This document shows positions 39,785 through 51,737 of a DNA stretch of 64,000 bases, piece after piece (within the stretch, counting starts at the first letter, position 1; every line of letters starts with the position of its first letter). A program made the translations under genes and the position numbers. The DNA lies in the NCBI GenBank assembly GCA_019752575.1, contig JAIELW010000001.1, forward strand, positions 372,001 to 436,000. The letters run 5' to 3'. This stretch comes from Xanthobacteraceae bacterium (lineage in GTDB: Bacteria; Pseudomonadota; Alphaproteobacteria; Rhizobiales; Xanthobacteraceae). The notes below the pieces were generated by a model, which did no database searches, was not told where the DNA came from, and was given only the letters and a program-made list of their open reading frames with translations.

Positions 39785-41206
<1,422 letters not shown>

Positions 41207-41212
41207 CGGTGC

Positions 41213-42412
41213 TTACCCCGCTTTACTGAACAGGCGCGAGAGTGCGCCGGATTGCTTGGTGTCTTTGGCCGCCGGAAGAATGAGTTTCTTCAGCGCCAGC
41301 ACGACATTGTTGCCCGGCTTCACTTCTTCGAGCGGAATGCCGCGGTCGATCGCTTCGCGGACGATGCGGAAATTGTTCGGCACCGAACCCGCAAAGGCGC
41401 CACCGAGGGCGCTCTGAATGTCGGCAAGACGCAAGCCCGGCACGAACATGCGCGATTCGAAACGGTTCACGATCACCTGCGGGTTCGCACTTTCGCCGAG
41501 ACGCTCGCTGATCGCGGAGACGAGCTTTTTCGCGTGGCGCAGACCAGGAATCGTCATCTCGCTGACGATGAAAAGCTTGTTGGAGCCGAGCAGCACGCTG
41601 TCGGTCCATGGAAACCAGGTGCGCGGCATGTCGATCACGACATAGCGGAAGTGCGACGAAACGAGATCGAGCAGCCGCGTCACCATGACCGGATCGAACG
41701 AACGCATCTCGGCGGGACGATTGGGCGCGGCGATAATCGACAGACCCGAGGAATGATGCGTGAGCATGACTTCGAGCAAATGCCGGTCGAGGCGTTCCGG
41801 ACGCGGCTCGATTTCGCTCAAGTCGAGTCGCGGCTCGATATCGAGATAGTCGGCGACGGCGCCTTGCTGAAAATCGAGATCGACGAGGCAGGTCGAGGAG
41901 CCGCCGCGCGTCGAGCCTTGCAAGAGAAGCGCGGACTGAATCGCAATCGAGGTCACGCCGACGCCCCCGGCAGACGGCAGGAACGTGAAAATTTCGGCTT
42001 CGGCTGTGGCGTCGCCTTGCGCCGGCTTCTTCGCTGCGCGGGCGCAGGCGCGTACCAGTTCGATCGGCGCTACCGGCTTCACGAGAAAATCGGCGACGCG
42101 GATCTGCAGCAAGCGGCGGGCGACGTTCTCGTCGAAAAACTGGGTAACGACCACCGCTGGCGCGCTGCCCGGTTTCGAAGTCATACGCGCGAGCGCCGCG
42201 ATCTGCGCTTCGTTCGCGGCATCGAGATCGACGATGACGACCGCTGCACCCTCGAGCGGCGCGTCCTCGATCTGCGTGAGGCCGCTTTCCAGCATTTCGA
42301 GCGAAATCTGAAGCTGCGACGAAAACGTGGTCTCGACCATCTGCCGGAATTGCTTATCCGACGAGATCGTCACGACATGCGTCGTTCCGCCTTTCCTGAT
42401 CTGATCGTTCAT
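41213..42412 (-). CDS. cpaE: Tad pilus localisation protein CpaE/TadZ
   Basis: 399 residues from ATG 42412; a TTG five codons upstream is an alternative. Residues 1-120 are an atypical receiver-like domain ('VVIVDLDAANEAQIAALARM', 'FLVKPVAPIELVRACARAAK'). Residues 130-390 are a MinD/ParA-type ATPase. The deviant Walker A reads SAGGVGVTS and lacks the lysines needed for normal ATP turnover, a feature reported for some TadZ proteins. CpaE marks the cell pole for pilus assembly. First gene of the cpaE-cpaF-tadBCD unit; its promoter must lie in 42413-42560. Confidence 0.9.
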   Translation of the reverse strand: MNDQIRKGGTTHVVTISSDKQFRQMVETTFSSQLQISLEMLESGLTQIEDAPLEGAAVVIVDLDAANEAQIAALARMTSKPGSAPAVVVTQFFDENVARRLLQIRVADFLVKPVAPIELVRACARAAKKPAQGDATAEAEIFTFLPSAGGVGVTSIAIQSALLLQGSTRGGSSTCLVDLDFQQGAVADYLDIEPRLDLSEIEPRPERLDRHLLEVMLTHHSSGLSIIAAPNRPAEMRSFDPVMVTRLLDLVSSHFRYVVIDMPRTWFPWTDSVLLGSNKLFIVSEMTIPGLRHAKKLVSAISERLGESANPQVIVNRFESRMFVPGLRLADIQSALGGAFAGSVPNNFRIVREAIDRGIPLEEVKPGNNVVLALKKLILPAAKDTKQSGALSRLFSKAG

Positions 42413-42567
42413 GCGCGCGTCCGCCAATTCCCCGGGCCTCTGCCGCGATTTGTTCGCGGGTCTCTTTGTCCGGAAAGTTGTAACGCAGGCGCCTTTCGGC
42501 CGGATGAAATTGCGAAATTGAATTGAATAGAACTTTATCGATCGCGCTGACGCGGCGGAAAGAAATG

Positions 42568-42590
42568 CCGCCCGCGCAAGCGCGGGCGGG
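42568..42590 (-). terminator. Terminator-like hairpin after the cpaD-position gene
   Basis: CCGCCCGC (42568-42575) pairs with GCGGGCGG (42582-42589) over a GCAAGC loop that can itself pair at its ends. On the minus strand it is followed by CATTTCTTT. It separates cpaBC-lipoprotein from cpaE, so the pilus cluster is two transcripts or an attenuated one. Confidence 0.65.
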
Positions 42591-42616
42591 TCTGTGTTCC
42601 AATGGTAGTACGAAGA

Positions 42617-42925
42617 TTACTTGTTCTCGCCGCCCGGGCTCGTCGAAAGTTCGATCGAGCTGGTGCCGAGACCACGCGGCGGAGTGACCTTGCCTTCCTT
42701 ATAGCGCTGGATCGCGGGCTGGATCTTTTCGCCGTTCACGAGGATATTGCGGTTCGCGGCATAGCGCGGCCACGGATCGATGGTCTGCACCGCGATGTTG
42801 CTCGCATTCGCATTGCCCGCGGTGAGATGAACCGTGTCGCGGCGGTCGTAGTAAATATCCGCGCAGGCAGCGAGCGAAAGCGAAAGCGCTACCGCGGCTG
42901 CGGCGGGTTTCAGATTAGTTCGCAT
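42617..42925 (-). CDS. Short lipoprotein in the cpaD position of the Tad cluster
   Basis: 102 residues from ATG 42925, whose start lies inside the last codons of cpaC (11-base overlap). Lipoprotein signal ends in 'LSLAAC' (Cys near residue 21). The mature part 'DIYYDRRDTVHLTAGNANASNIAVQTIDPWP', then a Lys-rich and Ser/Thr-rich tail, resembles the N-terminal part of CpaD pilus proteins, which are about twice as long. It is either a shortened CpaD or a distinct companion of the secretin. No frameshift remnant is visible downstream; only the terminator-like hairpin follows. Confidence 0.7.
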   Translation of the reverse strand: MRTNLKPAAAAVALSLSLAACADIYYDRRDTVHLTAGNANASNIAVQTIDPWPRYAANRNILVNGEKIQPAIQRYKEGKVTPPRGLGTSSIELSTSPGGENK

Positions 42926-44357
42926 TGGCGATCTCCGGGAAATCGAGTTGGTGACCGACATGCGGACGACGGGACACAGGGCCGTAAATCTTGCGGATGT
43001 CGGTCGGCGTCATTTCGGTCTTGCCGTAGAGGAAAAGATCGTTGTCGTTCGGCGGCACCGTCTCGTCGAGCGGTGTGCGGAGCATGTCGCCGGGGCGCGC
43101 CGGGCGCACTAGGCGCGGTGTCACGATGATCACGAGATCGGTTTCGCGCTTCTGGAACGAAGCCGAGCGGAACAGCGAGCCGAGCACGGGCACATCGGCG
43201 ATCCAGGGCAACTGGTCGGCCGCGGTGCTGGTCGTGGACTGCAACAGGCCCGCAATCGCAAAGCTTTGGCCGTCACGCAGTTCGATCGTGGTGCTCGCAC
43301 GGCGCACGATCAGGCTCGGCACCGAGATGTTGCCGACCTGCACGACGTTGGTCGGGTCGAGCTGGCTGACTTCCGGCTCGATCTTGAGATTGATCAGACC
43401 ATGCGACAGCACGGTCGGCGTGAAAGCGAGACCGACGCCGAACTTCTTGAACTGAATGGTGATCTGGTTGAACTGCGAGGCGACCGGGAACGGAAACTCG
43501 CCACCCGCGAGAAAGCTCGCGGTATCGCCCGAGAGCGCCACGAGGTTCGGCTCGGCGAGGCGGCGGGCGACGCCCTTCTGCTCGAGAGCGTTGATCATGG
43601 CGTCCACTTTCACGCCGCGATCGACGAGGCGGCCGAGGACCGCGCCAAAGGGCGTGGTTCCGGAAAGCACGCCGGCGGTGCCGGCCGTGGCGGCGATGTT
43701 GTTGCCGACCGCTTCCCACTGCACGCCAAGCTCGCGGCCCGCGTTGCGCGAGGCTTCGACGAAGCGGACTTCGAGCAGAACCTGCTGCGGCGCGGCGACG
43801 CTCACGGAATTGATGACGTCAGGCGAGAACTGCCTGGCAAACTGCAGCGCCTTGTCGAGCGTCACGGCATCCGGCACTACGCCCGAGAGCATGATGCGGC
43901 CGTTAACGGTCGAGACACGAACCTTCGCTTCCGGATACTGCTGGCGGATCGCAGCAGCGATCGCGTTGGTATCGTGCGAAACTTCGACGTCGAACACACC
44001 GACGAGTTGCTTGCCTTCGCCATAGACCGAGATGCGGGTAAGGCCGACCTTGCGGCCGAGCACCGAAAGCGTGCGGTCGGTAAGCGGCATCACGTCCGCG
44101 ATTTCCGGATCGCCGACGATGACATCGTTAAAGCCGGTGCTCGTGCGGATGTTTTCGGACTTTCCGATCGGAACCAGAACCTGTGAAGTGCGGTTTTCCG
44201 GCGAAAGCTTGACCACGCGCATTTTCGATTGCGCCTGCGCTTCAACGGACACAATCGTCGCAAGCGGGCTCGAGAGCGCAAGGAGCGCAACCAGCCATGA
44301 GATCGTGGCGCGTTTGAAAACCGCCCATCCGATCACGTTCGAGTGCAAGTTGTTCAC
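42915..44357 (-). CDS. cpaC: Tad pilus outer-membrane secretin CpaC/RcpA
   Basis: Secretin of 480 residues. Signal peptide to about residue 43 (VEAQAQ). Periplasmic N domain with 'KSENIRTSTGFNDVIVGDPEIADVMPLTDRTLSVLGRKVG', a BON-like domain ('VRVSTVNGRIMLSGVVPDAVTLDKAL'), then the secretin beta domain from about 195 ('QVLLEVRFVEASRNAGRELGVQWEA') to 'SFQKRETDLVIIVTPRLVRP'. It forms the outer-membrane ring through which the pilus passes. It follows cpaB by 35 bases. Confidence 0.94.
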   Translation of the reverse strand: MNNLHSNVIGWAVFKRATISWLVALLALSSPLATIVSVEAQAQSKMRVVKLSPENRTSQVLVPIGKSENIRTSTGFNDVIVGDPEIADVMPLTDRTLSVLGRKVGLTRISVYGEGKQLVGVFDVEVSHDTNAIAAAIRQQYPEAKVRVSTVNGRIMLSGVVPDAVTLDKALQFARQFSPDVINSVSVAAPQQVLLEVRFVEASRNAGRELGVQWEAVGNNIAATAGTAGVLSGTTPFGAVLGRLVDRGVKVDAMINALEQKGVARRLAEPNLVALSGDTASFLAGGEFPFPVASQFNQITIQFKKFGVGLAFTPTVLSHGLINLKIEPEVSQLDPTNVVQVGNISVPSLIVRRASTTIELRDGQSFAIAGLLQSTTSTAADQLPWIADVPVLGSLFRSASFQKRETDLVIIVTPRLVRPARPGDMLRTPLDETVPPNDNDLFLYGKTEMTPTDIRKIYGPVSRRPHVGHQLDFPEIANAN

Positions 44358-44392
44358 GACTGTAGCCCCTGTTTGCCCGCGCCGTTTTCGGC

Positions 44393-45271
44393 TTATCGGG
44401 TGACGCCCTGATTGACTGCGCTGTTGGTCATATTGGCTCCAGCTTCCGCAGGAACGCTGTAGTTTTCTTTTTTATTTCCGCGGGTGACCGTGATGGTCGA
44501 GAAACTGCCGTTCGGCGTATCTTTTTTCTGCGGCTTGCCGAGATCTTCCGCCGTGATCTGGCGCACGGGCTGCGCCGCCTGATCGCCGGCTTTGCGCAGG
44601 GCGAGCGTGAGCGTGCCGAGCGAAGCTGCGAGCGAAAGCTTCTGGCCTTCCGCCATTTCCACTTCGAGCGTGACCGCCTTCACCACCGCGGGCTTATCGA
44701 GGCGGTCGTCCGCGATCTGGTCGATCGCGAGCACGCGGACGTTCTGGAGCACCACATCTGAGCTGCTGCTGGTATTGGTGCCGCGTTCGCTCGAGATATT
44801 GCGGGTGAGAAGAATATCGACACGGTCGCCGGGCAGCACGAAACCGGCAACGCCTTCGATGTCGTTCACGCGAACGGTAACAGCCTTCATGCCGGGCGTG
44901 AGCACCGCGGAAAGCGTCGCGCGCTGGCCTGGGCCGGTGATTTTCGACGCAAGCACGGGTTCGTTTTCGGCAATCGCGGTGAGCACCATCCGCTTGCCAG
45001 CGGAAAGCAGCGCGTCGATCGAGGCGAAAGCGCCGTCCGGAATCGCATTATCGGGCCACGGTACTTCGCGCAGATTGCGCGCGTTCATCTCGATGCCGAA
45101 GCGAAGCGGTGCGCTCGCGACCACGATGGTGCGTGTTTTCACGGCGACCGGCGCGGGAACATTTTTCAACCGTGCGTCGTTCTGGCTGTTAAGCCAGGAC
45201 TGCGCCACGAAAACGGCGAGCGCGCCGAAAACGAGCGCGACAACGATCATAAGAACTGCGCTGATCCGCAA
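44393..45271 (-). CDS. cpaB: Tad pilus assembly protein CpaB/RcpC
   Basis: 292 residues with an N-terminal membrane anchor (about 5-25), then a SAF-like domain ('VVASAPLRFGIEMNARNLREVPWPDNAIPDGAF' and 'LTAIAENEPVLASKIT'). The RcpC domain follows, with 'VTVRVNDIEGVAGFVLPGDRVDILLTRNIS', 'VVLQNVRVLAID' and 'VTLEVEMAEGQKLSLAASLGTLTLALR'. It is thought to stabilise the secretin in the periplasm. First gene of the cpaBC unit; the 486-bp gap upstream carries a CtrA-like inverted repeat. Confidence 0.92.
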   Translation of the reverse strand: MRISAVLMIVVALVFGALAVFVAQSWLNSQNDARLKNVPAPVAVKTRTIVVASAPLRFGIEMNARNLREVPWPDNAIPDGAFASIDALLSAGKRMVLTAIAENEPVLASKITGPGQRATLSAVLTPGMKAVTVRVNDIEGVAGFVLPGDRVDILLTRNISSERGTNTSSSSDVVLQNVRVLAIDQIADDRLDKPAVVKAVTLEVEMAEGQKLSLAASLGTLTLALRKAGDQAAQPVRQITAEDLGKPQKKDTPNGSFSTITVTRGNKKENYSVPAEAGANMTNSAVNQGVTR

Positions 45272-46725: not shown

Positions 46726-49284
46726 TCAAGCCTGCTGCGGGACGTCGGTTCCGGTGCTGCGGTGCGTCGAATAGGACGTGAGCGCATCGCGCACGCCATC
46801 GAATTCCGCGCCGAGTTTCGCGAGATAATCGGTGCCGCGCATTTCCAGTTCGCGCTCGCCGATATGACGCCAGGACAGGCACATCTTGTAGATGCGGCGG
46901 GCGCCGATATTTGCGGCGCCGCTGCGCATGGCGTGGAGTTGCTCGCGGAACGCGGTTACGTCGCCTGATTTCGCCGACTGCTTCAGCTCGACCAGCAACG
47001 CCTCGGTATCGCGGTTGAAGTCCGCGATCAGTTCATCGACAAACTTGGCGCCGCCGAGCGCTTCAAGGTCGGTAAGCGCTCGCAGATCGATCGAGGACGC
47101 GTCCGACGACTTGAATTTCGGATGCGAGGTGATGCGCTTCACGGTCTCGCTTTCGGCGAAGGCCTGCTCGTCGCTGATCTGCTTTTCGCCAACGATGGAT
47201 TCGACGATATTCAGGAGACGTGCGGGCTCGATCGGCTTGATCACGCAGGCGTCCATACCCGCTTCCTCGCAACGCTGCTTGGTTTCCGGCGTAGCGTCGG
47301 CGGTCAGCGCGACGATCGGCAGCCGCTGCTTGCCGAGCGACGCGAAGCGATGAAGCTTGGTCGCTTCGATACCGTTCAGCACCGGCATGTTCACGTCCAT
47401 GAGCGCGATGTCGAAAACCTTGGCCTGCATCGCGTCGAGCGCCTGCTCGCCGTTATCGACAATGCTGACGTCGTGGCCGGCGCGCTCGAGAATCTTGCCG
47501 ATGACCTTCTGGTTGGTGCGGTTGTCGTCGGCCACGAGAATGGAAAGCTTGCGGGTCGAGCGTTCGCGCTCGACGTTGCCGTCCTCGTCGATGCCGGCGG
47601 CGTCGCCCGCCTTCGCAATCCGCAGTGCCGCGCCAAGCTGGCGCAGTTCGGCGGGTTTACCGAGATAGGACACGAAATCGAAACGCGCGGGCAGCGGCAG
47701 CATGCCGGCAGCCGGGTTTTTTGACATCAGAACGACGGACATATTGGTGCCGTGATGCATCTTGTTCAGCGTCGCGCCGACGGTCGCGAGATCGGGCTGC
47801 AGTTCGTGGTCGTCCACGATCACGATCGTGCGGCGGATGCCGCTCGCTTCCGGCAGTGCGATCTGGTCGCAGGCCTGTCCCGGCGTGCGCGCGATTTCCA
47901 GTGTCGCGCCGGAAGGTTCGAGCATGCGCTCGATTTCCGCGGCGCTGTCGTTGTTGCGCGCAAGCAGGATCACGCGTGAGTCCGACAGATCGGGGATCGC
48001 GTCGCCGTCGTTCGCACAAATGCGATAGTTGAGTTCGAACCAGAACGTACTACCCTCGCCGAACTTGCTATCGACGCCGATCGTGCCGCCCTGACGCTCG
48101 ACAAGCTGCTTGACGATGGCAAGGCCGAGGCCGGTGCCGCCAAAGCGATCGACGATGCTCTCGTCCGCCTGTGTAAAGCTCTGAAAGATTTTCTCTCGCG
48201 CCTCTTCGGCGATGCCGATGCCGGTGTCGGTCACTTCTAAGCGGATGCGGGCCGAGCCGTCTTTCTGCTCGATCATGGCGGCCGCGATCGAAATGTTGCC
48301 GCGATCGGTGAATTTCACCGCATTGGCAGTAAGGTTGGTCAGTACGTCGTGCAGCGCACGCGAATTTCCGTGCAGCATGAACGGTGTCTGCGGCGCGGCA
48401 TGCAGCGAAAGGCGAACGCCTTTCTCCTTCGCTTGCGCGACCAGCATGGAACGCACCTGCCCCATGATCGCATGAAGGTCGAAATCCACCGACTGATCCG
48501 GCATCTGGCCGGCTTCGATTCGCGAGTAATTCAGAATATCGTTGATCTGCGCGAGCAACGCGCGCGCCGAGCCGCGAATCGTCTGCGTCATATCGAGCTG
48601 CTCGGCGTTCAGCTTGGTGTCGCGAAGCATGTCGCTCATGCCGATCACGGCATTCAGCGGTGTGCGGAATTCGTGGCTGACGCTCGCAAGGAACAGGCTC
48701 TTTGCCTTGTTCGCCTGCTCGGCTTCATTCTTCGCGGCCTGCAACTTCTTGATCAGCGTGGCGGCATAAAGCGGAAGAATGACAAGGCCGCCGATCAGGC
48801 CATAGGCAAGCTTGTAGTGTGCTTCCCAATATCCCGTCGTGGCAACAACCGCGGTGAACCCCGCGACCGCAACCAGCATCGCGCCGAAGAGATACTTCAG
48901 ACCGAAGCGGAAGCCGTTGCCGAAAATGATCCAGAGATAGATCGGATAGAGCAGCGAGAGTGCTTCGTCGCCGGCGTGAATACCCCAGGACAGAAACCCG
49001 AGATCGGAAATGAGCGCAATCACGCGCCGCGGCACCGATACGCCGGGCTGATGAAGCATATGGGCCAGGAACGCAAACGAAATGCCGAAGAACAGCGACG
49101 TAAGCACGGCCGCCTGCAGCGGGATGTGCGCGCCGAACATCGCCGCGCCGCCGAGGTAGGCCAGAATCAGCGCGCTGATGGCGACGCGGTTGACGACCAT
49201 CTCATGCTCGCCGTCCGGCCGGTTCTTGAGACGGCTTTTGAGGAAGCCGATGAGCGAGAAGCGGGATTTCGTGGCTGCGGTCAT
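46726..49284 (-). CDS. rpfC: Hybrid sensor histidine kinase, RpfC-like
   Basis: 852 residues. Membrane sensor of five or six helices (about 32-176) with the RpfC-type 'SLLYPIYLWIIFGNGFRFGLKYL'. A HisKA domain carries His204 ('SVSHEFRTPLN'), and a full ATPase domain has N box 'LTANAVKF', 'DTGIGI' and 'GGTGLGLAI' (382-390). Next come a degenerate receiver-like segment (about 435-560), a true receiver with phospho-acceptor Asp630 ('ALMDVNMPVLNG'), and an HPt domain with His784 ('LHAMRSGAANIGA'). This is RpfC's phosphorelay order plus one pseudo-receiver. In Xanthomonas RpfC senses DSF and restrains RpfF. GAGGAG precedes the start, 10 bases after the GGDEF-EAL gene, so the two are co-transcribed. 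Confidence 0.87.
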   Translation of the reverse strand: MTAATKSRFSLIGFLKSRLKNRPDGEHEMVVNRVAISALILAYLGGAAMFGAHIPLQAAVLTSLFFGISFAFLAHMLHQPGVSVPRRVIALISDLGFLSWGIHAGDEALSLLYPIYLWIIFGNGFRFGLKYLFGAMLVAVAGFTAVVATTGYWEAHYKLAYGLIGGLVILPLYAATLIKKLQAAKNEAEQANKAKSLFLASVSHEFRTPLNAVIGMSDMLRDTKLNAEQLDMTQTIRGSARALLAQINDILNYSRIEAGQMPDQSVDFDLHAIMGQVRSMLVAQAKEKGVRLSLHAAPQTPFMLHGNSRALHDVLTNLTANAVKFTDRGNISIAAAMIEQKDGSARIRLEVTDTGIGIAEEAREKIFQSFTQADESIVDRFGGTGLGLAIVKQLVERQGGTIGVDSKFGEGSTFWFELNYRICANDGDAIPDLSDSRVILLARNNDSAAEIERMLEPSGATLEIARTPGQACDQIALPEASGIRRTIVIVDDHELQPDLATVGATLNKMHHGTNMSVVLMSKNPAAGMLPLPARFDFVSYLGKPAELRQLGAALRIAKAGDAAGIDEDGNVERERSTRKLSILVADDNRTNQKVIGKILERAGHDVSIVDNGEQALDAMQAKVFDIALMDVNMPVLNGIEATKLHRFASLGKQRLPIVALTADATPETKQRCEEAGMDACVIKPIEPARLLNIVESIVGEKQISDEQAFAESETVKRITSHPKFKSSDASSIDLRALTDLEALGGAKFVDELIADFNRDTEALLVELKQSAKSGDVTAFREQLHAMRSGAANIGARRIYKMCLSWRHIGERELEMRGTDYLAKLGAEFDGVRDALTSYSTHRSTGTDVPQQA

Positions 49285-49294
49285 GGCGTACTCC

Positions 49295-51439
49295 TCACGC
49301 CGTTCGCGCCAGCAAATTCTGCTGGTTGAACAGGAAAGCGAAGTCCTCCGCCGGCACCGGCGGACTGAAATAGAATCCCTGCACCTCGTCGCAACCTTCG
49401 CTGCGCACGAAAGCGAGCTGTTCCGCGGTTTCGACGCCTTCGGCCATGATCTTGAGGTTCAGGCTGTGGCCGAGATTGATGATCGCGCGCACGATCGCGG
49501 CGTCGTTCGGATCGGTGTTGACGTTGCGGATGAAGCCCTGATCGATCTTGAGACGATCCACCGGCAGGTTCTTCACATAAGAAAGCGAGGAATAGCCGAC
49601 GCCGAAATCGTCGATGGAGAAGGTGATGCCCTTCTCCTGCAGGAACCGCACATCGCTCGCAGCCGATTCCGGATTCTGCATCAGGATGCTCTCGGTGAGC
49701 TCGAGCTCAAGCGAGCGCGGATCGAGACCGGTTTTCTCGAGCGCGTCGAGTACGTGCTGGCGGATGTCCTGCTTACGGAACTGCACCGGCGAAAGGTTCA
49801 CGGCGATACGGAAGTCGGGGTGATCCTTCGACCAGCGCTTCGCCTGATGGCAGGCTTCGATCAGCACCCATTCGTTGATCGGAACGATGAGGCCGTTCTC
49901 TTCCGCAAGCGGCAGGAACTCCGCCGGACGCACAAGACCCGAGCCCGGACGGCGCCAGCGCAGCAGCGCTTCCGCGCCGATGATCTGGCCGGAGCGCAGA
50001 TCGATCTGCGGCTGGTAATTGAGCAGGAACTGCTTCTTTGCGAGCGCCTGACGGAGATCGCTTTCGAGCACGATCGCCTCGCGCGCGATCGCATGCATGT
50101 CGGACGCAAACACGCGCCAGGCGTTCCGGCCTTCGGCCTTGGCCTGGTACATCGCAAGATCGGCGTTCTTCAACAGCGCATCGACATCGACGCCGTCGGT
50201 CGGATGCACGGTGATGCCGATGCTCGCGGTGGTGTTGATTTCCTGACCTTCCAGTTCGAAAGGCTGCTCCAGCAATTTGATGACTTTCTCCGCGAGCGTC
50301 ACCGCGTCGTCGGTGCGGCCGATCTCGGTCTGCAGGATCGCGAATTCGTCACCGCCAAGGCGCGCGACAATATCGGTTTCGCGCAAGGCATTGCACAGGC
50401 GCTGCGAGACCGCCTTCAGGAGTTGATCGCCCTGATGATGGCCAAGCACGTCGTTCACGCCCTTGAAACGGTCGAGATCGAGGAGAAGCAGAGCGAACTG
50501 TTTGTCGCCGCGGCGCGTGCGCGCGATCTGCTTGCGAACGCTGTCGTGGAAGTAAGTGCGGTTCGGCAGACCCGTGAGCGGATCGTGATGCGCCAGGTGG
50601 TGGAGATGTTCCTCCGCCTGCTTGCGCTCGGTGATGTTGAGCGAGGTGGTGAGTACGTTAATGACCTTGCCGGCGCGGTCGCGCAGCGGCGATTTTGTGG
50701 TCAGGAACACATGGCGATTGCCGGCGCGATCCACGATCTCTTCTTCATAGCTCGGGAGACCCTTGCCGTTCTCGAACACGACACGGTCGAGGCCCGCGCT
50801 CTGCGGTCCAAAGTTCGAGCCGAAGATCTCGGCGGCAGTCTTGCCGCTCGCCTGCGCGGCATCGACGCCATAGAAGTTCGCCGTGAAGGCATTGAGAAAT
50901 ACGCAGCGGCCGTCCTTGTCGGTTGCGGAAATCAATGCGGGGACGGTATCGATGACCTGCGCCAAGCGCTCGCGGTTGTCGCGCAACACTTCCTTGCGGA
51001 AGCGCTCGCTGTCCATCAATTCGCGCTCGAGCTCGGTCGCGCGGCTCTTAATCACAAGCTGCTGCTTGCGGAGCTGCAACAGATTGCGGGCGCGCGTCAG
51101 AAATTCGTGATGATCGACCGGGCTTTGCAGAAAGTCGGTGGCGCCGGCCTCCAATGCATTGATCCGGTGCGAGCGCTCTTCGTAAACGGTGATGACGACC
51201 GCCGGCACGTCGGCGCATTCCGGAAGTTGACGGAAGCGGCGCACTAACTCAGCGCCGTCGATATTCGGCATCTTGTAGTCGGTGACAACGAGATCGGGCG
51301 TATTATCCTTGAGCCAGTCGAGCGCTTCGATGGGATCGCCGAACGCGCGCACAGCCACGCCCTCTTCGATCGAAGTAGCGAGCTTCGCAAAGATGTTCCG
51401 GTTCGTAACCCGGTCATCGACAATGACGATCAACGACAT
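49295..51439 (-). CDS. Response regulator with REC-PAS-GGDEF-EAL domains (cyclic di-GMP turnover)
   Basis: 714 residues, cytoplasmic. Receiver at 1-120 with phospho-acceptor Asp54 ('VVTDYKMP'), a coiled linker, PAS at about 155-270, then GGDEF at about 280-440 with intact GGDEF (362-366) and an inhibitory RxxD site (RETD, 353-356) five residues before it. The EAL domain (about 455-700) keeps EALLRW (490-495), 'NLSPVQF', the double Asp 'DDFGVGYSS' (610-618) and 'EGVET'. Both activities could work, so it may switch between making and degrading cyclic di-GMP. It lies just ahead of the RpfC-like kinase, occupying the position of RpfG, an HD-GYP phosphodiesterase. It is the likely phosphorelay output. 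Confidence 0.92.
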   Translation of the reverse strand: MSLIVIVDDRVTNRNIFAKLATSIEEGVAVRAFGDPIEALDWLKDNTPDLVVTDYKMPNIDGAELVRRFRQLPECADVPAVVITVYEERSHRINALEAGATDFLQSPVDHHEFLTRARNLLQLRKQQLVIKSRATELERELMDSERFRKEVLRDNRERLAQVIDTVPALISATDKDGRCVFLNAFTANFYGVDAAQASGKTAAEIFGSNFGPQSAGLDRVVFENGKGLPSYEEEIVDRAGNRHVFLTTKSPLRDRAGKVINVLTTSLNITERKQAEEHLHHLAHHDPLTGLPNRTYFHDSVRKQIARTRRGDKQFALLLLDLDRFKGVNDVLGHHQGDQLLKAVSQRLCNALRETDIVARLGGDEFAILQTEIGRTDDAVTLAEKVIKLLEQPFELEGQEINTTASIGITVHPTDGVDVDALLKNADLAMYQAKAEGRNAWRVFASDMHAIAREAIVLESDLRQALAKKQFLLNYQPQIDLRSGQIIGAEALLRWRRPGSGLVRPAEFLPLAEENGLIVPINEWVLIEACHQAKRWSKDHPDFRIAVNLSPVQFRKQDIRQHVLDALEKTGLDPRSLELELTESILMQNPESAASDVRFLQEKGITFSIDDFGVGYSSLSYVKNLPVDRLKIDQGFIRNVNTDPNDAAIVRAIINLGHSLNLKIMAEGVETAEQLAFVRSEGCDEVQGFYFSPPVPAEDFAFLFNQQNLLARTA

Positions 51440-51737
51440 TTCGCGAACGCAGTCCCCTGGCCTCGCCGCATTCTGGCGGCGTCATTCTTGTTGGGCCGCA
51501 TTGCGTTTCGCATGCCTCCCGCACGCGAGACGCGGTGCGCCCGCGTTTTTTCTAGCAATTATTGTTGAAGAAGCTGCTAATCGCGCGGCTACGAATTGTT
51601 AGCGTTGTTCCTATGATGCGAGGGAACTTCGGTAAGGATTCCGGAATCGTTAAGGCTAACGAAGCGTTGATTCAAAAGAAAACTCCCCGCCTTGCGGCGG
51701 GGAGTCTTTATATATGCGTATCGTGGCTGCAGAACGC
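51440..51737. other. Intergenic region between the GGDEF-EAL gene and livK
   Basis: 298 bp. Apart from the livK terminator at its right end, it holds the promoter of the signalling operon. The stretch 51545-51665 is AT-richer and has TTAAGGCTAACG-like strings. No open frame with gene character was seen. Confidence 0.5.
51682..51705 (-). terminator. Intrinsic terminator after livK
   Basis: ACTCCCCGCC (51682-51691) and GGCGGGGAGT (51696-51705) form a perfect 10-bp stem with a 4-base loop. On the minus strand TTTTCTTTTGAA follows. It ends the livGFHMK transcript. Confidence 0.9.

Follow-up and report, generated by a model that had tools for sequence, protein, structure and literature searches.

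The window, as we call the whole 64,000-nucleotide stretch analysed here, encodes a REC-PAS-GGDEF-EAL response regulator in the place that RpfG takes in classical systems, next to an RpfC-type hybrid kinase and a convergent rpfF homologue. DSF is a fatty-acid "crowding" signal, and RpfG couples its sensing to c-di-GMP. We consider it quite probable that the locus specifies a DSF-type phosphorelay with a rebuilt response regulator, probably an RpfG-type receiver that was kept while its output domain was replaced. In the literature searched, which was accessible in part and left subscription papers mostly aside, RpfC-RpfG and RpfR are the two DSF cores, and no description of an RpfC paired with a GGDEF-EAL regulator in alphaproteobacteria was found; RpfC-type relays would thus be extended to an order for which this literature holds no description. 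Beyond the preliminary description of this DNA, the interest of the locus lies in the apparently retained RpfG-type receiver with a swapped output, in a missing switch lysine and in the loss of Asp54 together with the kinase. The features discussed are as follows.

51679..51708, minus strand: terminator-like hairpin separating the regulator gene from the ABC-transporter gene upstream of it (pattern scan, weak)
49295..51439, minus strand: response regulator of 714 aa with REC-PAS-GGDEF-EAL architecture, encoded upstream of its partner kinase (Pfam)
51077..51439, minus strand: receiver domain, RpfG-type, Response_reg at residues 4-116 (Pfam; receiver tree)
51278..51280, minus strand: Asp54 codon GAC, predicted phospho-acceptor, D in 35/35 family members
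51122..51124, minus strand: Ser106 codon AGC, at the conserved receiver lysine position, S in 35/35
50618..50950, minus strand: PAS_4 domain, residues 164-274 (Pfam; AlphaFold PAS fold)
50123..50593, minus strand: GGDEF domain, residues 283-439 (Pfam), with the GGDEF motif at 50342-50356
50372-50383, minus strand: I-site RETD (R353-E-T-D356), five residues before GGDEF (362-366)
49358..50059, minus strand: EAL domain, residues 461-694 (Pfam), E490-A-L present
46726..49284, minus strand: RpfC-type hybrid kinase with hydrophobic sensor, HisKA (H204), HATPase_c, REC (D630) and HPt (H784) (Pfam)
49198..49221, minus strand: juxtamembrane sensor motif RPDGEHEM, kinase residues 22-29, compared with Xcc R15-A-D17-S18-E19-H-A-Q22 as given in the accessible part of PMC5391125
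45740..46723, plus strand: RpfF-type DSF synthase homologue, facing the kinase gene in convergent orientation at a distance of 2 bases from its end

Pfam and a motif check agree with the preliminary description that the regulator joins a receiver and a PAS domain to intact GGDEF and EAL motifs. The letters N548, E580, E583, D610, D611, K631, E667, E670 and Q687, which we take to be the catalytic letters of EAL, are all present. The 10-base gap between the regulator and kinase genes was confirmed (GGAGTACGCC, with the kinase starting at 49284). An I-site RxxD had also been described; it is present here, though family-wide it is intact in 19/35 members alone, so that product inhibition would mark some members, the window regulator included. 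The 35 family members are the window regulator, 28 from a sample of the order, five from close MAGs and L185, and the regulator is 36-97% identical to its 34 aligned relatives. The GGDEF motif occurs in 35/35 members, as do the checked EAL letters, except for Q687 (34, with a gap at the L087 contig end). The named NCBIfam equivalogs listed for the regulator (best DibA, then a PRK10060-type phosphodiesterase) were below their cut-offs and are not used. Promoter and terminator scans gave results near chance, the terminator-like pattern yielding 9 sites where 6.3 were expected by chance. The genome has 3.0 Mb and is 99.99% complete. A scan with the upstream ABC-transporter gene gave five MAGs of Hyphomicrobiales/Xanthobacteraceae as the closest named relatives, whose longest aligned blocks are 84-87% identical in DNA. 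Four of them (L086, L088-L090) share the arrangement of regulator, kinase and rpfF, and the contig of L087 ends inside the regulator.

The kinase has the architecture of RpfC, with HisKA, HATPase, REC and HPt behind an N-terminal sensor homologous to that of the RpfG-linked kinases. Its HPt match is marginal (23.9 bits, 0.7 under the Pfam cut-off); H204, D630 and H784 are invariant in an alignment of 12. Simple hydropathy gives about four clear hydrophobic stretches in residues 28-181, where five transmembrane helices characterise RpfC. The product of the convergent gene matches the solved RpfF (PDB 3m6m) with an E value of 7.9e-50 and is a crotonase with both active-site glutamates: E172 and E192 align with E141 and E161 of Xcc RpfF (counted from the alignment to 3m6m), presumably the catalytic glutamates under that numbering. 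It scores over the PRK08788 cut-off. We term it an RpfF homologue only, because its 204.4 bits against the NCBIfam RpfF equivalog fall under the cut-off of 550.

The pairing of regulator and kinase was followed through a sample of 297 genomes of the order. The N-terminal sensor of the kinase (E<=1e-10) was matched in 34 of them, and 35 loci of the 33 other sensor-bearing genomes were read in addition to the window. The REC-PAS-GGDEF-EAL gene lies directly upstream, on the same strand, in 29/34 sensor-bearing genomes (the window and 28 others); two more, of family f31, have a REC-histidine-kinase protein at that place, and three (five loci, weak sensor matches) have neither. When the receiver was used as the query (E<=1e-20, same sample), the long regulator was found in 32 genomes, and the kinase is present in the same 29 of these; the three others are the f44 orphans described below. 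Counts of 29/34 and 29/32 rule out chance adjacency. A convergent rpfF homologue adjoins the pair in 17/29 pair-bearing genomes (16 and the window), and one occurs anywhere in 21/29, against 18/268 other sampled genomes (Fisher p 2e-15), which is a strong association only, the genomes being related and not independent. There was no rpfF match at E<=1e-40 in 8/29. Two of the 18 order-sample genomes that have an rpfF homologue and lack the pair belong to f31, where the neighbour of the kinase (L072 6994-8583, L073 9595-11229) is the REC-histidine-kinase of the same receiver lineage, with rpfF beside. The rpfF match in G277 and G093 contains a stop codon. Family f44 (L075, L076, L078, L081, L083-L085) has the pair adjoining HlyD/TolC-like secretion genes, and no rpfF was found in its seven sampled kinase-bearing genomes.

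Sensing of DSF by Xcc RpfC requires R15, D17, S18, E19 and Q22; only Thr is tolerated at position 18, and the changes Q22A, Q22E and Q22N lowered sensing (accessible part of PMC5391125). Three of these five residues are kept in the window kinase (R22, D24, E26), in which S18 is replaced by G25 and Q22 by M29. The place of Q22 holds Q in 9/9 HD-GYP-linked kinases and M, I or L in 26/26 GGDEF-EAL-linked kinases of the order outside f44 (the window and 25 others); f44 kinases have other letters there. The sensor motif thus varies with the output, and these kinases may respond to a ligand other than Xanthomonas DSF. These substitutions, together with the 8/29 pair genomes without an rpfF match, would suit an RpfC-like two-component system with a non-DSF ligand, beside which the rpfF homologue would be an unrelated neighbour. 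We regard such a system as unlikely in view of the co-occurrence of rpfF with the pair (p 2e-15), its convergent placement in 17/29, the equivalents of R15, D17, E19 and H20 kept in the window kinase, and the conserved active-site glutamates of the RpfF homologue.

A phylum sample of 398 genomes included 60 with a sensor match, and 40 loci of 38 genomes were read; six of the 22 others also belong to the order sample, and 16 lie beyond what was read. The sensor search of the phylum sample, the receiver and rpfF searches of the order sample, and the search that yielded L290 scored no more than a few top candidates in each genome, and second copies may be missed. The classical order of REC-HD-GYP gene, kinase and convergent rpfF was found in nine loci (9/38 genomes read), and the same arrangement with a REC-PAS-GGDEF-EAL regulator in one, L185, from another order of the class. 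Neither regulator was seen beside the sensor in 28/38 genomes, in a few of which a contig end lies close by (L195, L196, L198). The window locus shares with RpfC-RpfG-RpfF of Xanthomonadaceae the kinase architecture, the regulator-kinase order with convergent rpfF and the ancestry of the receiver; it differs in having PAS-GGDEF-EAL for HD-GYP, serine for the receiver lysine, and methionine and glycine for Q22 and S18 of the sensor.

The ancestry of the receiver was examined in trees that rest on short alignments, carry flags for long branches and had bootstraps that were still unsettled. The main tree used 116 columns, with those of Asp54 and Ser106 excluded, and omitted the RpfG rows L179 and L190 (like L178), the HD-GYP rows L245 and L250, L251 and L252 (no HD-GYP motif), L289 and 19/28 other receivers of the genome. 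The receivers of RpfC-linked RpfG, the GGDEF-EAL regulators, their kinase-less orphans and the f31 regulators form a clade in it (95/86) that excludes the 13 receivers taken from REC-HD-GYP proteins of other systems. Within that clade, all members but RpfG group together (99/90), and the GGDEF-EAL regulators taken by themselves are only weakly one group (81/66). In an earlier tree with all 28 other receivers of the genome, RpfG and the GGDEF-EAL regulators grouped at 100/99 and the GGDEF-EAL regulators at 97/87. Because the receiver tree groups the regulator with RpfC-linked RpfG, it is most simply read as an RpfG-type receiver that was retained under a new output domain, and the basal spread of RpfG suggests, not firmly, that the HD-GYP output came first. 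The claim that the regulator takes RpfG's place beside the kinase is supported: it occupies the same slot, its receiver falls in the clade of RpfC-linked RpfG, it lies beside the kinase in 29/34 sensor-bearing genomes, and an HD_5 search of its own genome found no REC-HD-GYP. It belongs to the RpfC-linked receiver clade and adjoins rpfC; it is not an RpfG because the HD-GYP output domain is absent.

The domain order of the regulator is also that of CfcR (Rup4959) of the CfcR/CfcA system of Pseudomonas putida, a protein that makes c-di-GMP and depends both on a histidine kinase and on phospho-Asp D65 (accessible part of PMC4951495). This likeness would be all there is to the window regulator if it were an ordinary CfcR-type protein beside a kinase and no relative of RpfG. 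Such an origin is very improbable, since the receiver groups with RpfC-linked RpfG and not with the other receivers compared (the trees were built without CfcR), and the only unrelated REC-PAS-GGDEF-EAL protein read, L290, which comes from a different part of the phylum, retains the lysine in a receiver that is unlike this one. CfcR differs further in that the P. putida gene is an orphan, apart from its kinase, and that the accessible part of PMC4951495 reports no link to RpfF.

The preliminary description had noted no HD-GYP gene nearby, and had named an HD-GYP response regulator elsewhere in the genome, preferred by the kinase, as a finding that would speak against it. A Pfam HD_5 (HD-GYP-type) search of the whole genome, using this one HD model, detected a single protein (G000:C13:69342-70232), which is encoded on another contig than the window and consists of HD_5 and a C-terminal LuxR-type HTH without a receiver; no REC-HD-GYP was found in the genome by this search. 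A REC-HD-GYP is encoded at another locus in three of the 29 pair-bearing genomes, G010 (L248), G027 (L239) and G277 (L247), where it lies near a hybrid kinase core other than that of the pair. Within the order, REC-HD-GYP proteins of other systems (15 loci: L239-L250, L256-L258) resemble the window system in having a related receiver and, in 12/15, a related kinase core within the 8 kb read; they differ in that the 13 included in the tree lie outside the RpfC-linked clade and keep the lysine, and that no RpfC-type sensor match is next door.

The preliminary description overlooked that the switch lysine of the receiver is absent throughout the family. Its place, which we take to be that of K109 in CheY, is occupied by serine (Ser106) in 35/35 members. 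In the joint alignment the same position is K in 6/7 and R in 1/7 RpfG receivers, and K in 12/12 receivers of the RpfC kinases; it is K in 13/13 other REC-HD-GYP receivers, and K in 27/28 and R in 1/28 of the genome's other receivers included in the alignment (28, where the genome has 35 other matches). The f31 regulators have L and T. A loss inherent in the REC-PAS-GGDEF-EAL architecture was considered and discarded on the single unrelated example read, L290, which keeps K. The other receiver residues checked are conserved: Thr84 in 35/35, and Asp8 and Asp9 in 34/35, the exception being L056. The receiver frame of L056 (6623-7008, G170) is broken near residue 31, by sequencing error or decay. 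Loss of the lysine in CheY still allows phosphorylation and weakens activation. The textbook receiver mechanism is for this reason unlikely in the window regulator; phosphorylation may not switch it, and a receiver that does signal must work non-canonically, for instance by means of Thr84 and the acidic pocket without the lysine, or under a threshold that the PAS domain sets.

The link between Asp54 and the kinase, which the preliminary description had proposed as a phosphotransfer partnership, is supported by natural deletions. Asp54 is present in 35/35 members, and the kinase was seen next door in 34. Three genomes of family f44, G084 (L253), G197 (L254) and G288 (L255), carry the regulator without a following kinase. 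The orphans are flanked, as judged by eye, by the same genes as in kinase-bearing relatives, namely TolC- and HlyD-like genes upstream and a flavoprotein-like or other conserved gene downstream, and the kinase has thus been lost by deletion in place. With an f44 kinase as the query, the sensor was recovered in four positive-control genomes, and the three orphan genomes gave only partial matches of the HisKA region, starting at query residue 170 or beyond (at least 170). Asp54 is replaced in 3/3 orphans (Ser, Ser, Gly), which fall in two tree lineages; they keep Asp8, Asp9, Thr84, Ser106, GGDEF and the checked EAL letters, and lack the I-site, as do their kinase-bearing f44 relatives. The joint loss of kinase and Asp54 is the strongest sign so far that the kinase targets Asp54. 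A fourth orphan, L289 (G604), from another order, keeps Asp54 without a kinase and counts against the relay as a partial exception; it has lost the first residue of the acidic pocket and GGDEF, and has Ala at the place of Ser106.

The same observations bear on whether the receiver transmits a signal at all. It could be a docking or phosphate-sink module, with the activity set by the PAS domain through a ligand of its own, possibly the fatty-acid signal as in RpfR/RpfS. Serine in place of the switch lysine in 35/35 would fit this, as would the f44 orphans, in which kinase and Asp54 are gone and all checked GGDEF/EAL letters remain; enzyme activity there seems to be selected without phosphorylation. 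A PAS domain that aligns in 20/20 members aligned would also be expected. Asp54, however, is kept in 35/35 members and lost in all three f44 orphans, and the PAS domain bears no special likeness to that of RpfR, so we think a docking or sink role doubtful.

The PAS domain of RpfR binds DSF through S169, N172, Y183, R187 and N202. The AlphaFold model of the window PAS domain (pLDDT 91.8) is an ordinary PAS fold. RpfR is absent from the 44 PDB sequences found to match it at E<=0.01, and the RpfR PAS structures 6dgg and 6dgj rank 42 and 48, with Z of 12.5 and 12.4, among the best 50 folds listed (VIA). Direct binding of DSF by the regulator PAS is thus possible but unsupported. RpfR-RpfF of Burkholderia/Cronobacter is alike in tying a PAS-GGDEF-EAL protein to RpfF through convergent genes (accessible parts of PMC6361424 and PMC4504480); it differs in having an N-terminal FI domain and no receiver, where the N-terminus of the window regulator is a Response_reg by Pfam. 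RpfG and RpfR both hydrolyse c-di-GMP upon signal (accessible parts of PMC4504480 and PMC13220807), so a net phosphodiesterase here would preserve the old logic. In our judgement, which is not a measurement, a net phosphodiesterase is the most likely output, by a modest lead over even chances; a net cyclase is a possibility we do not expect, and two-way switching is unlikely. That the signal could either raise or lower c-di-GMP, as the preliminary description suggested, is in our reading a hypothesis prompted by sequence.

Taken together, a relay can be proposed in which the RpfF homologue would make a fatty-acid signal and the RpfC-type kinase would sense it. Phosphate would then pass from H204 to D630, H784 and Asp54 of the neighbouring regulator, as synteny and the natural loss of Asp54 suggest. 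The receiver of the regulator has, by the tree, a common origin with those of RpfC-linked RpfG, and carries PAS-GGDEF-EAL in the place of HD-GYP. In the structure predicted for the full-length regulator (mean pLDDT 87.9, pTM 0.47), a single helix, residues 110-165, lies between receiver and PAS, and Ser106 ends the strand 102-106; given this long helix, phosphorylation would probably alter the dimer and so shift the balance of both enzymes. Several points weigh against the relay: the lysine loss, the changes at S18 and Q22, the 8/29 genomes without rpfF, the 3/29 with a REC-HD-GYP elsewhere, the score of the RpfF homologue under the NCBI cut-off, the weak 81/66 grouping and the long branches. 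A more elaborate version is distinctly unlikely, namely that the fatty acid acts twice, on the lysine-less receiver by way of the kinase and on the PAS domain directly, as a two-input gate tipping GGDEF-EAL either way, with receiver, output and sensor motif having changed together on leaving the RpfG design.

At least three kinds of output are found on the RpfC-linked receiver lineage, namely HD-GYP, PAS-GGDEF-EAL and a histidine kinase (the last in f31), and DSF-type signalling therefore appears modular at its output. Signalling by a lysine-less receiver can be tested directly here, given the family-wide change from lysine to serine and the naturally occurring kinase deletions in which Asp54 was lost as well. 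Other arrangements were seen around the sensor in the phylum sample: family f81 (loci among L171-L208) makes up 23/28 of the regulator-less genomes and has convergent rpfF in 21/23, and suf-like genes, labelled by eye, lie upstream of its sensor kinases in several loci read. In the window, a Flp/Tad pilus cluster at 39785-45271 (CpaB by NCBIfam, its neighbours labelled by eye) directly adjoins rpfF and is a possible target of c-di-GMP control; the DNA blocks of L086 and L088-L090 partly span this cluster.
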